From Deltaproteobacteria bacterium (lineage in GTDB: Bacteria; Desulfobacterota; RBG-13-43-22), in the NCBI GenBank assembly GCA_016219225.1, contig JACRBX010000132.1:1-58033 (forward strand): a stretch of DNA of 58,033 nucleotides, given 5' to 3'. The notes beneath the pieces were generated by a model that searched no databases, was not told where the DNA came from, and worked only from the letters and a program-made list of their open reading frames with translations. Every line of letters starts with the position of its first letter. Position 1 is the first letter of the stretch. Shown here one piece after another: positions 51,449 through 55,737 of the stretch. The position numbers were made by a program, and so were the translations under genes.

Positions 51449-51976
51449 ATGACGGACGACCAGTTAGTTGAGCGGGTAAAAAATGGGGATTCCCTGGCCT
51501 TTGAAGAACTGGTCTTTCGATACCAGAAGCCGATTTATTATTTTGTCTTGCGGATGCTGAAGAGTCCTTTAGACGCTGAAGATGCTGTCCAAAAAATATT
51601 TTTACTGGCTTATAAAAATATCAAGGGATTCAGGGCCGATTCGACTTTTAAAACCTGGTTATATCGAATAGGGATCAACCAATGTAATAATTTTTTCCGT
51701 CAAAATAAAAATCGGGAATTCATCTCCGTGGATGAAATCCCGGTGGCCGATTTCAGTGCCGATCAAGAAGGGGATTTGTCGGAAAAGGAAATACTGGTCA
51801 GTCTCCGGAAAGCCGTAGATCGGCTTCCCTATAAGCAAAGGATGGTGGTTTCCTTAAGAATTTATCAGGATCTCTCCTTTGATGAAATTGGAAAGTCCCT
51901 TGATATCCGGGCAAACTCGGCTAAGGTTAATTTTCACCATGCCATGGAAAAACTCAAAAATTGGATGAAGACCTAA
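51449..51976 (+). CDS. ECF-subfamily RNA polymerase sigma factor (RpoE-like)
   Basis: A 175-residue sigma-70 group IV protein: region 2 (LVFRYQKPIYYFVLRMLKSP, DAEDAVQKIFLLAYKNIKGF, TFKTWLYRIGINQCNNFFR) and region 4 (LRKAVDRLPYKQRMVVSLRI, LSFDEIGKSLDIRANSAKVN). It would direct RNA polymerase to envelope-stress promoters. The following gene encodes a zinc-binding anti-sigma factor and the third a Spy-like periplasmic protein, a classic stress operon. There is no strong ribosome site (AAAGATGAA). Confidence 0.93.
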   Translation: MTDDQLVERVKNGDSLAFEELVFRYQKPIYYFVLRMLKSPLDAEDAVQKIFLLAYKNIKGFRADSTFKTWLYRIGINQCNNFFRQNKNREFISVDEIPVADFSADQEGDLSEKEILVSLRKAVDRLPYKQRMVVSLRIYQDLSFDEIGKSLDIRANSAKVNFHHAMEKLKNWMKT

Positions 51977-52003
51977 CCAAAACTATTTAAGAATCTTAAA
52001 ATC

Positions 52004-52687
52004 ATGAAAGTGCTATCCTGTAAAAAAATAAAAAAACTGACCGGCGGTTATTTTCAGAGCCTGTTGTCCCCCGATCTGGTCCAGGGGGTTGATAGGCATC
52101 TCGCCGCTTGTCCGGTCTGTAAAAAGGAATACCAGGAAACTCAAGAGGTCCTGGACCTCTTGAACCGGGACCGTCTGCCGGATCCCGGACCGGATTTCTG
52201 GAAGGGGTTGAACTCCAGGATTATGGCCCAGGTGGGCCTTAGCCGGCCTCATTCCCTGAAGGTCCCCTGGTATAAAAAGATCGGGAGTAACCCTTTCACC
52301 TGGCCCGGCTATGCCTGGGTAACGGCCTTGATTCTCATCCTTTTGACCCCCTGGGCCATTTATACTATTCCTTTTAAAGGCCAACCATCCACTCTGGTCC
52401 AGGAATTCCCGGAGAACGAATTGAAATGGGAATTGGGTTTTGAGTCCGTACCGGCAGCGGTTGATTCCCTTTCCGCCAGGGAGTCCGTTCGTTTGGGAGA
52501 AAGGATAGTGGCTCGAATGGGAAAGGATTTGACCGGGAAGCCTCCATTATCGACTGAGGATGAATTGCAGTGGGATGTTTCTCCTTCTCTGGAAGGTCTT
52601 AATAATGAACAGTTGGATACTCTGTTTAAAAAAATGAAAACCGGAGGTTTTCCCGGTTTTAAGGAGGAAGAAAAGCATGTATCCTGA
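52004..52687 (+). CDS. Anti-sigma factor (zinc-finger, single-pass membrane)
   Basis: 227 residues. The N-terminus has the ZAS zinc motif (VDRHLAACPVCKKEY, His-x3-Cys-x2-Cys). One transmembrane helix follows at about residues 104-122 (AWVTALILILLTPWAIYTI), and the C-terminal half (about 125-227) is periplasmic. It should hold the ECF sigma factor at 51449 inactive until an envelope signal arrives. The stop overlaps the start of the next gene by 11 bases. Confidence 0.88.
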   Translation: MKVLSCKKIKKLTGGYFQSLLSPDLVQGVDRHLAACPVCKKEYQETQEVLDLLNRDRLPDPGPDFWKGLNSRIMAQVGLSRPHSLKVPWYKKIGSNPFTWPGYAWVTALILILLTPWAIYTIPFKGQPSTLVQEFPENELKWELGFESVPAAVDSLSARESVRLGERIVARMGKDLTGKPPLSTEDELQWDVSPSLEGLNNEQLDTLFKKMKTGGFPGFKEEEKHVS

Positions 52688-53988: not shown

Positions 53989-54017
53989 TTGACATTTTAA
54001 AAGGTTCGATTTAATAA
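53989..54017 (+). promoter_or_regulatory. Sigma-70 promoter of the fluoride-riboswitch operon
   Basis: TTGACA (53989-53994), a 17-base spacer and TAATAA (54012-54017) form a near-consensus promoter. Transcription would start near 54024, just before the riboswitch aptamer. Confidence 0.7.
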
Positions 54018-54028
54018 TTCTAAAAATT

Positions 54029-54082
54029 GAGGTGATGAAGTTCACCTGAACCGTCCGTTTTGGCGGACTGATGACTTCTGCT
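54029..54082 (+). ncRNA. Fluoride riboswitch (crcB motif)
   Basis: The aptamer elements match the crcB consensus in order: GGTGATG (54031) pairing with CACC, the GAACC segment, a stem GTCCG/CGGAC, then CTGATGACTTCTGC. The GATGAAGT segment can pair with ACTTC to form the pseudoknot. The element lies 5 bases after a predicted transcription start and is followed by a terminator that shares ACTTC, so fluoride binding should block termination and switch on the antiporter and universal stress protein genes. Both gene types are known members of fluoride regulons. Confidence 0.88.
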
Positions 54083-54116
54083 TCGGATTGGTCCGGGGTG
54101 GAAGTTTTTTATTTTT
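54074..54116 (+). terminator. Intrinsic terminator serving as riboswitch expression platform
   Basis: ACTTC and TTCGGA pair with TCCGGG and GAAGT around a TTGG loop, followed by TTTTTTATTTTT. The left arm ACTTC is also part of the fluoride aptamer, so the two structures are mutually exclusive. Confidence 0.75.
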
Positions 54117-54128
54117 AGAGGTTGTTGA

Positions 54129-55286
54129 ATGGACGATCAGTTGATATCCCTGGTACTTTGGGCACTTATTTTTGTGGCCAGTTTTTTTTCGGTTGAATTG
54201 GGGCTTTCGGTGGCCATCATCGAAATTTCCCTGGGAGTTATCGGAGGTAACTTTCTGGGACTCCACCCCACCCCCTGGATTAGCTATCTGGCCGGTTTTG
54301 GAGGCATATTGCTGACCTTTCTGGCCGGGGCCGAGGTGGACACCCAGGTCATGAAAGCCAAATTAAAGGAAAGCTTTCTGATCGGGGCCGTATCCTTTCT
54401 GTTCCCTTTTTTAGGGGCCATGGTCTATGCCCATTACCTGTTGGATTGGTCCTGGCCGGCATCCAAGATCGCCGGGATAGCTTTGTCGACCACTTCTCTG
54501 GCCGTGGTCTATGCCGTTTTGGTCGAAACCGGCCTGACCAACACCGAACTGGGCAAGATCCTTATGGCCGCCACCTTTTTTACCGATCTGGGCACCGCTA
54601 TGGCCCTCTCCCTGCTCTTTCTTGAGTTTAACTGGTTCACCCTGCTTTTTTTGGGGGTGTCAATTGTATTGATCCTGGTTATTCCCAGAATCTATCCCTG
54701 GATCTGCCGGCGCTACGGCGACCGGGTGATCGAGCCGGAAATTAAGTTTCTTTTTCTTGTTTTGGTCGTCATCATGTTTTTCGCCAAAGTCGGGGCCAGT
54801 CATGCCATCCTGCCGGCCTTTGTTCTGGGCCTGGCCATGTCCAACAGCTTTATGGAAAACCGGAAGCTTCAACGTCGTCTCCGGGTGGTGGCCTTTGCCA
54901 TCATTACCCCCTTCTTTTTTATTAACGGCGGTATGAATATCTCCTTAAAATTGCTCCTGGTAAATTCAGGTCTCCTGGTCCAGATGCTTCTGGTCAAACA
55001 GGTTACTAAAATAGCAGGGGTCTATCCCCTGGCTAAAAAATATCTCCCTGAAAATGCCATGTATACCACCCTGTTGATGAGCACGGGTCTGACCATGGGG
55101 ACCATTTCGTCGGTTTTCGGATTAACGGCCGGCCTCATCAGTCAGGCCCAGTTTTCCGTGCTGGTGGCCACGGTGGTTCTGAGTGCCATCATCCCCACTT
55201 TTATCGCCCAGAAATGGTTTGAGCCCGCTTATGAACTGCCCGAAATGAACGGCTTGTCTACAAACTCGGAAAATTTGGAGGAATAG
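54129..55286 (+). CDS. Cation:proton antiporter (CPA2-type), fluoride-riboswitch controlled
   Basis: A 385-residue membrane protein with about 11-12 hydrophobic helices. It has the NhaA/KefB-type core ELGLSVAIIEISLGVIGGNF, FLAGAEVDTQ, GIALSTTSLAVVYAVL and FFTDLGTAMALSLLF, where the charged TD pair fits the ion-binding region of CPA2 exchangers, then SHAILPAFVLGLAMS and TPFFFINGGMNISL. It exchanges monovalent cations and protons across the inner membrane. Control by a fluoride riboswitch suggests a role when fluoride or acid enters the cell. It is in an operon with the universal stress protein (10-bp gap). Confidence 0.92.
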   Translation: MDDQLISLVLWALIFVASFFSVELGLSVAIIEISLGVIGGNFLGLHPTPWISYLAGFGGILLTFLAGAEVDTQVMKAKLKESFLIGAVSFLFPFLGAMVYAHYLLDWSWPASKIAGIALSTTSLAVVYAVLVETGLTNTELGKILMAATFFTDLGTAMALSLLFLEFNWFTLLFLGVSIVLILVIPRIYPWICRRYGDRVIEPEIKFLFLVLVVIMFFAKVGASHAILPAFVLGLAMSNSFMENRKLQRRLRVVAFAIITPFFFINGGMNISLKLLLVNSGLLVQMLLVKQVTKIAGVYPLAKKYLPENAMYTTLLMSTGLTMGTISSVFGLTAGLISQAQFSVLVATVVLSAIIPTFIAQKWFEPAYELPEMNGLSTNSENLEE

Positions 55287-55296
55287 GAGGTGTTCC

Positions 55297-55737
55297 ATGT
55301 TTAAAAAATTATTGGTGGCTTATGACGGATCGGAGGATTCCAAGAAGGCCCTGGAGATTGCCTTGGAACTGTCCAGGAAGTTTGATTCGGAAGTGCATCT
55401 GTTGACCATCGTCGAACAGCTCCCCCATTATGCAGCCACCATCGGGGAGGTCAAAGAAGCCCTGGCCGAGATCACCAAGGAGATCGAAAAGGAGCAAACT
55501 CTGGTCTGTGAAGGTGCCAGGGAACAGGGGGTGGACATCAAATGCCGGATACTTCCGGGCCATGAGGTGGAGGCCATCATTGCCTTTGCCCAGAAGGGCA
55601 ACTTCGATGCCCTGCTCCTGGGCAGAAAGGGCCGGTCCGCTATCCTGCACACCAAAAGCGGCAGCACGGCCGTGCAGGTCAGCACCCATGCCCCCTGCAC
55701 GGTCATCCTGGCCCAGGCGGGAAAAAGGAAGGAATAA
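55297..55737 (+). CDS. Universal stress protein (UspA family)
   Basis: A 146-residue UspA domain: LLVAYDGSEDSKKALEIAL, EVHLLTIVEQ, IIAFAQKGNFDALLLGRKGR and the ATP-loop-like SGSTAVQVSTHAPCTVILA. It is probably nucleotide-binding and cytoplasmic. It lies directly downstream of the antiporter (GGAGG site) and so also under the fluoride riboswitch, a pairing known from other fluoride regulons. The exact role is unknown. Confidence 0.92.
   Translation: MFKKLLVAYDGSEDSKKALEIALELSRKFDSEVHLLTIVEQLPHYAATIGEVKEALAEITKEIEKEQTLVCEGAREQGVDIKCRILPGHEVEAIIAFAQKGNFDALLLGRKGRSAILHTKSGSTAVQVSTHAPCTVILAQAGKRKE

Follow-up and report, generated by a model that had tools for sequence, protein, structure and literature searches.

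The 58,033-nucleotide stretch of deltaproteobacterial DNA analysed here (the window) carries a predicted fluoride-ON riboswitch unit on its plus strand, whose first gene encodes an antiporter of a distinct, compact and riboswitch-linked subfamily that occurs mostly in genomes devoid of both known fluoride exporters, and it is this affiliation that is new. On the reading preferred here, to which a probability of roughly 0.55 is assigned, the antiporter would exchange a cation for protons and thereby lower fluoride accumulation as part of a two-gene fluoride-resistance operon.

The leader of this unit begins with a sigma-70-like promoter predicted by a consensus scan at 53989..54018 (TTGACA, 18 nt, AATAAT; 11/12 consensus matches), which would place the transcription start just ahead of the aptamer; within the 501 bases scanned, 0.5 promoter-like sites are expected by chance. 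The fluoride riboswitch aptamer (crcB motif) follows at 54022..54087 and was matched by cmscan to RF01734 over its full length with 51.3 bits (E 2.5e-11), well above the gathering cut-off of 34 bits, and no other Rfam family exceeded its cut-off anywhere in the 58-kb window. Hence, both the promoter and the crcB aptamer that the first-pass annotation had read from the letters are corroborated, the latter by the covariance-model scan proposed there. The search for further crcB motifs that it had likewise suggested was run as well: no second fluoride riboswitch was found in the rest of the 5.9-Mb genome (98.9% complete), leaving the copy of the window as the only one.

Within the aptamer, the 5' strand of the pseudoknot, GAAGU in the loop of P1 (54037..54041), forms five of five pairs with the 3' strand ACUUC (54074..54078). 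Compared to the consensus GGAGU/ACUCC, this constitutes a compensatory change from G-C to A-U, and the five pairs are kept in all 13 relatives checked. The 3' strand is in turn common to the left arm, GACUUC (54073-54078), of an intrinsic terminator hairpin at 54073..54106, which comprises 15 pairs and a tetraloop at about -19.4 kcal/mol, so that the overlap of ACTTC with the aptamer had been correctly noted before. Directly 3' of the hairpin, a U-tract can be read from the sequence (TTTTATTTTT, 54107..54116), and the likely ribosome-binding site AGAGG (54117..54121) lies 7 nt ahead of the ATG. The folding energy of the 109-nt leader is 4.7 sd below that of shuffled sequences, with the terminator included in the minimum free energy fold. 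Among the leaders of relatives, a crude scan detected a hairpin beginning within the aptamer in 12/36, the others featuring a later hairpin or none.

Since ACUUC belongs to the left arm of the terminator, pseudoknot and terminator are predicted to be mutually exclusive, which in turn predicts the fluoride-ON transcription switch already proposed in the first-pass annotation. When fluoride is absent, the 3' strand of the pseudoknot would pair into the terminator and transcription would end before the antiporter gene is reached. Binding of Mg-fluoride, on the other hand, would steady the pseudoknot and keep ACUUC from the terminator, allowing transcription of the antiporter and the adjacent universal stress protein (USP) gene. 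This regulatory half of the proposed mechanism, a putative fluoride-ON attenuator, is strongly supported by the arrangement of the leader. A decayed or non-functional riboswitch might be suspected from the mid-range score of 51 bits and from a loop, GAAGU, that departs from the consensus; however, the loop change is compensated in the 3' strand, the overlap with the terminator is exact and the RF01734 score lies well over the cut-off, and on these grounds this scarcely credible explanation was rejected.

The antiporter gene (54129..55286, 385 aa) and the USP gene (55297..55737, 146 aa, PF00582 at 99.6 bits) follow the riboswitch on the same strand. Because the gene after them, encoding an HdrA-like protein, is convergent, the operon comprises two genes, and the domain matches together with the gene order agree with the antiporter-USP operon described earlier. 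The nucleotide-binding motif of the USP, G-2X-G-9X-G-S, is intact as read from the sequence (GRKGRSAILHTKSGS), and the protein would presumably act as an accessory or regulatory stress protein. Further upstream in the window, the gene at 52677-53207 matches Metal_resist (PF13801) weakly, at 22.3 bits and below the cut-off, and is a possible periplasmic stress sensor; it is preceded by what appear by eye to be a sigma factor gene and an anti-sigma gene (51449-52687).

The antiporter itself matches PF00999 with 126 bits over residues 14-357 (cut-off 26.2 bits) and is devoid of a PF02537 domain, which upholds the earlier statement that the regulated transporter is neither CrcB/Fluc nor CLC-F. Its designation as a CPA2-type antiporter holds only in part: the best-scoring solved relatives are indeed NapA (4bwz) and KefC (8bxg/8by2), but the curated CPA2 model TIGR00932 yields 106 bits, below its cut-off of 238.3, and the protein is therefore termed CPA2-like here, i.e., a divergent relative instead of a formal member. 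An AlphaFold2 model built from three sequences was set aside owing to a mean pLDDT of 49.5.

Distribution of the antiporter was surveyed across 395 genomes belonging to the phylum of the window's genome, 158 of which contain a fluoride riboswitch and 176 CrcB. At E values up to 1e-20 the antiporter was detected in 60 genomes, of which one (G198) was dropped as an outlier on account of an E-value gap between 2.5e-71 and 3.3e-36. In the remaining 59 genomes the subfamily is nearly always accompanied by the riboswitch, which is present in 55 of them (93%) as opposed to 103 of the 336 others (Fisher 2e-20). Covariance-model scoring of 61 fetched antiporter loci placed a riboswitch on the same strand at most 3 kb upstream in 50 and at most 350 nt upstream in 37, some of the remaining loci being cut by contig ends. 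Four antiporter genomes (G061, G103, G172 and G360) feature no recognised riboswitch, and relaxing the threshold revealed none in the vicinity of the gene. Moreover, homologues outside the phylum also reside behind a fluoride riboswitch, namely in a Clostridiales MAG (L033, 63% identity) and a KSB1 MAG (L034, about 75%). Neighbours recurring in the 61 loci are USP (39), MFS transporters (19), dynamin-like GTPases (12), enolase (11) and CrcB (7), and in six of the seven CrcB-containing loci, CrcB shares the strand of the antiporter and belongs with it to one run of genes headed by the riboswitch.

In a gene tree of 71 sequences, which includes the 59 subfamily members, Kef-like paralogues, the second PF00999 subfamily discussed below (L185 type) and G198, the 59 group together and apart from all of the latter, and riboswitch linkage occurs on both deep branches. 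The antiporter of the window clusters with L034, G016 and G061 and more loosely with G298 and L033, while a genome of the same genus (G047) possesses a copy of about 40% identity on another branch, equipped with a riboswitch of its own. Since the copies of the two congeneric genomes sit on separate branches, each with a riboswitch, the riboswitch-antiporter unit has likely been replaced or transferred laterally.

The presence of the riboswitch in 55 of the 59 genomes strongly supports the predicted status of the antiporter as a fluoride-response gene, and the subfamily would represent a dedicated fluoride-response branch of CPA2-like PF00999 transporters. It also bears on the notion of a general stress pair, made up of antiporter and USP, that merely acquired a riboswitch, fluoride being incidental. 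USP proteins are common companions of CPA2 antiporters, and four subfamily genomes lack a recognised riboswitch, as would suit such a pair. Nevertheless, the linkage in 93% of the genomes, its occurrence on both deep branches and in other phyla, and the recurrence of enolase and CrcB, known fluoride-response genes, in the antiporter loci speak against it; the incidental stress operon, largely refuted by the riboswitch linkage, was rejected as very improbable.

Several further arrangements were encountered around the fluoride riboswitches of the loci examined. An nhaA-I riboswitch (RF03057) lies just 3' of a fluoride-riboswitch antiporter (L101:4375-4431), and MFS transporters (PF07690; e.g., L208:1364-2527) are recurrent. 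Dynamin-like GTPases (PF00350, 80 bits in L187:3708-5372) often follow the fluoride riboswitches of the phylum, frequently with enolase nearby, as also seen for the GTPases in L191, L203, L138, L142, L196 and others; in the literature searched, no paper mentions fluoride riboswitches together with dynamin. In addition, some fluoride riboswitches come in divergent pairs, one on either strand with about 100-200 nt between them, and apparently serve two opposite genes (L074, L090, L105, L112, L117 and others).

Aligned with NapA, the antiporter of the window places T152-D153 at D156-D157, K290 at A301, K294 at K305 and T322 at E333. The Asp-Asp pair of the NapA type in TM5 is absent from the window's antiporter as well as from all 59 subfamily members: position 152 is N or T in 59/59 and D153 is present in 58/59. 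K290, which sits one turn from K294, is invariant in 59/59 together with K294 and T322, and is absent from the Kef-like paralogues and from G198. Hence, an [N/T]-D pair in TM5, a K-xxx-K motif in TM10 and the lack of the TM11 Glu are diagnostic of the subfamily, although G198 also lacks the TM11 Glu, which suggests that this loss predates the subfamily.

Only two types of fluoride exporter are recognised in bacteria, and the majority of the bacteria surveyed possess one of them (PMC11139923). In the genome of the window, no CrcB/Fluc protein (PF02537) was found, and its sole CLC protein displays the motifs GHGTE, GKEGP and GGIVTP, thus none of the three CLC-F signatures GNNLI/GMGLI, GREGT/V and GEVTP (PMC11139923); despite 38% identity to one CLC-F, it was rejected as a candidate for want of any signature. 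The antiporter is also the only PF00999 match found in this genome. Apart from a small residual doubt arising from genome completeness and search sensitivity, the genome thus appears to sense fluoride yet to lack either recognised exporter.

A shortage of Fluc also marks the subfamily at large. CrcB is encoded in 10 of the 59 antiporter genomes but in 166 of the 336 others (p 2e-6), and the shortage persists among riboswitch genomes (10/55 with the antiporter vs 44/103 without, p 0.003) as well as when these are counted by genus (9/44 vs 32/68, p 0.005). Three genomes encode clear CLC-F proteins, and the antiporter is missing from all of them. A second PF00999 subfamily, the L185 type, which retains the classical D-D motif, is present in 32 genomes, 27 of which contain a riboswitch and merely two CrcB; antiporters of this type were seen directly behind a fluoride riboswitch in L185:222-1685 and also in L186, L188, L193, L195, L197 and L200. 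When both families are pooled, CrcB is found in 12 of the 79 riboswitch genomes that encode at least one of them vs 42 of the 79 with neither (p 7e-7). In all of these tests, phylogeny was allowed for by the genus count alone. In 36 riboswitch genomes, neither Fluc nor CLC-F nor either antiporter family was found; many of the riboswitches examined there precede genes for dynamin GTPases, MFS transporters or NADHdh-type complexes.

It is mainly the shortage of Fluc along with the residue signature that raises a serious, if tentative, rival to cation/proton exchange: the antiporter, despite its CPA fold, could itself export fluoride by F-/H+ exchange and would then form a third class of exporter that takes the place of Fluc and CLC-F. 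A genome that senses fluoride without a PF02537 protein, and whose only CLC is devoid of CLC-F signatures, would fit such a role, as would the 49 of 59 subfamily genomes without CrcB, a deficit that holds within riboswitch genomes and by genus, and the absence of the antiporter from all three clear CLC-F genomes. Relative to NapA, moreover, the exchange of D156 for N/T and of E333 for T322 together with the gain of the lysine K290 adds net positive charge and might yield a more anion-friendly site. On the contrary, CrcB resides within seven antiporter loci and is also encoded in the genomes from which the close relatives L033 and L034 stem; the 36 riboswitch genomes without Fluc, CLC-F or either antiporter imply that a lack of Fluc alone proves little; and the L185-type subfamily, whose D-D motif is the classical one, exhibits the same Fluc shortage (2/32). 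The broader proposition, that the riboswitch-linked CPA2-like subfamily might constitute a third class of bacterial fluoride exporters that substitutes for Fluc and CLC-F across much of the phylum's fluoride-sensing or other genomes, is regarded as slightly more doubtful still.

Cation/proton exchange, which the first-pass annotation had put forward alongside the transport of fluoride-linked ions, is favoured by the conservation of NapA D157 and K305, to which D153 and K294 correspond, and by the neutral residue that replaces D156, as in KefC. Likewise, the seven loci that contain CrcB suggest a role of the antiporter beside Fluc, and the riboswitch linkage of the L185-type D-D subfamily (27/32) is counted in its favour, as is the published association of Na+/H+ antiporters with this riboswitch and with pH homeostasis (PMC11139923). 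On the other hand, the shortage of Fluc (10/59 vs 166/336) is not expected from pure pH homeostasis, and a cation site would not usually lose two acidic residues while acquiring an invariant lysine, both of which argue against it. If cation/proton exchange is correct, the uptake of H+ in exchange for K+ or Na+ would diminish the pH difference by which HF is trapped as F- in the cytoplasm, and fluoride would then leave the cell as HF. Tolerance of a lower internal pH by fluoride-acclimated cells is discussed in PMC11139923. Fluoride responsiveness, the direction and ion specificity of transport and the role of the USP are what we infer here.

The first-pass annotation had implied that an antiporter is an unusual target of this riboswitch, a view in need of qualification. 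According to PMC11139923 (citing Baker et al. 2012), Na+/H+ antiporters are the commonest class associated with fluoride riboswitches after the exporters and are linked to pH homeostasis, and the regulated transporter is therefore less unusual than supposed. In the literature searched, where Baker et al. 2012 was represented by its citation in PMC11139923, no paper was found that defines the antiporter subfamily, its signature or its shortage of Fluc. Many fluoride-sensing genomes of the phylum thus lack both exporters but keep a dedicated antiporter subfamily under riboswitch control, which may constitute an alternative way to cope with fluoride. The question of what else removes or tolerates fluoride hence becomes directly testable with one gene, and the residue signature allows recognition of the subfamily from sequence.

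Among known systems, the leader corresponds to that of crcB RNAs (PMC2864571), with which it shares the aptamer, the pseudoknot and a terminator overlapping the 3' end; nothing substantive differs apart from the one loop pair changed from G-C to A-U. The fluoride-induced resistance operon of Enterobacter cloacae FRM, of which a uspA gene is part (PMC5533749), likewise combines a fluoride riboswitch with a USP gene and is experimentally tied to fluoride resistance, but its exporter is CrcB, and it comprises six genes with no antiporter reported. CLC-F, an F-/H+ antiporter, resembles the window's antiporter solely in a possibly analogous function, as it belongs to another protein family whose signatures are absent from the genome of the window. 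A closer likeness exists to the riboswitch-associated Na+/H+ antiporters as described in PMC11139923, in which a PF00999-type antiporter is also the first gene after the riboswitch; within a comparison that extends to this account, the subfamily of the window is distinct, with its own residue signature and its shortage of Fluc. Unlike NapA, the antiporter of the window features Thr in place of the first TM5 Asp (N or T across the subfamily) and Thr in place of the TM11 Glu; unlike KefC, it is devoid of a C-terminal cytoplasmic domain; and its subfamily is set apart from both by the extra invariant lysine K290, while the TM5 Asp and the TM10 Lys of NapA and KefC are retained.
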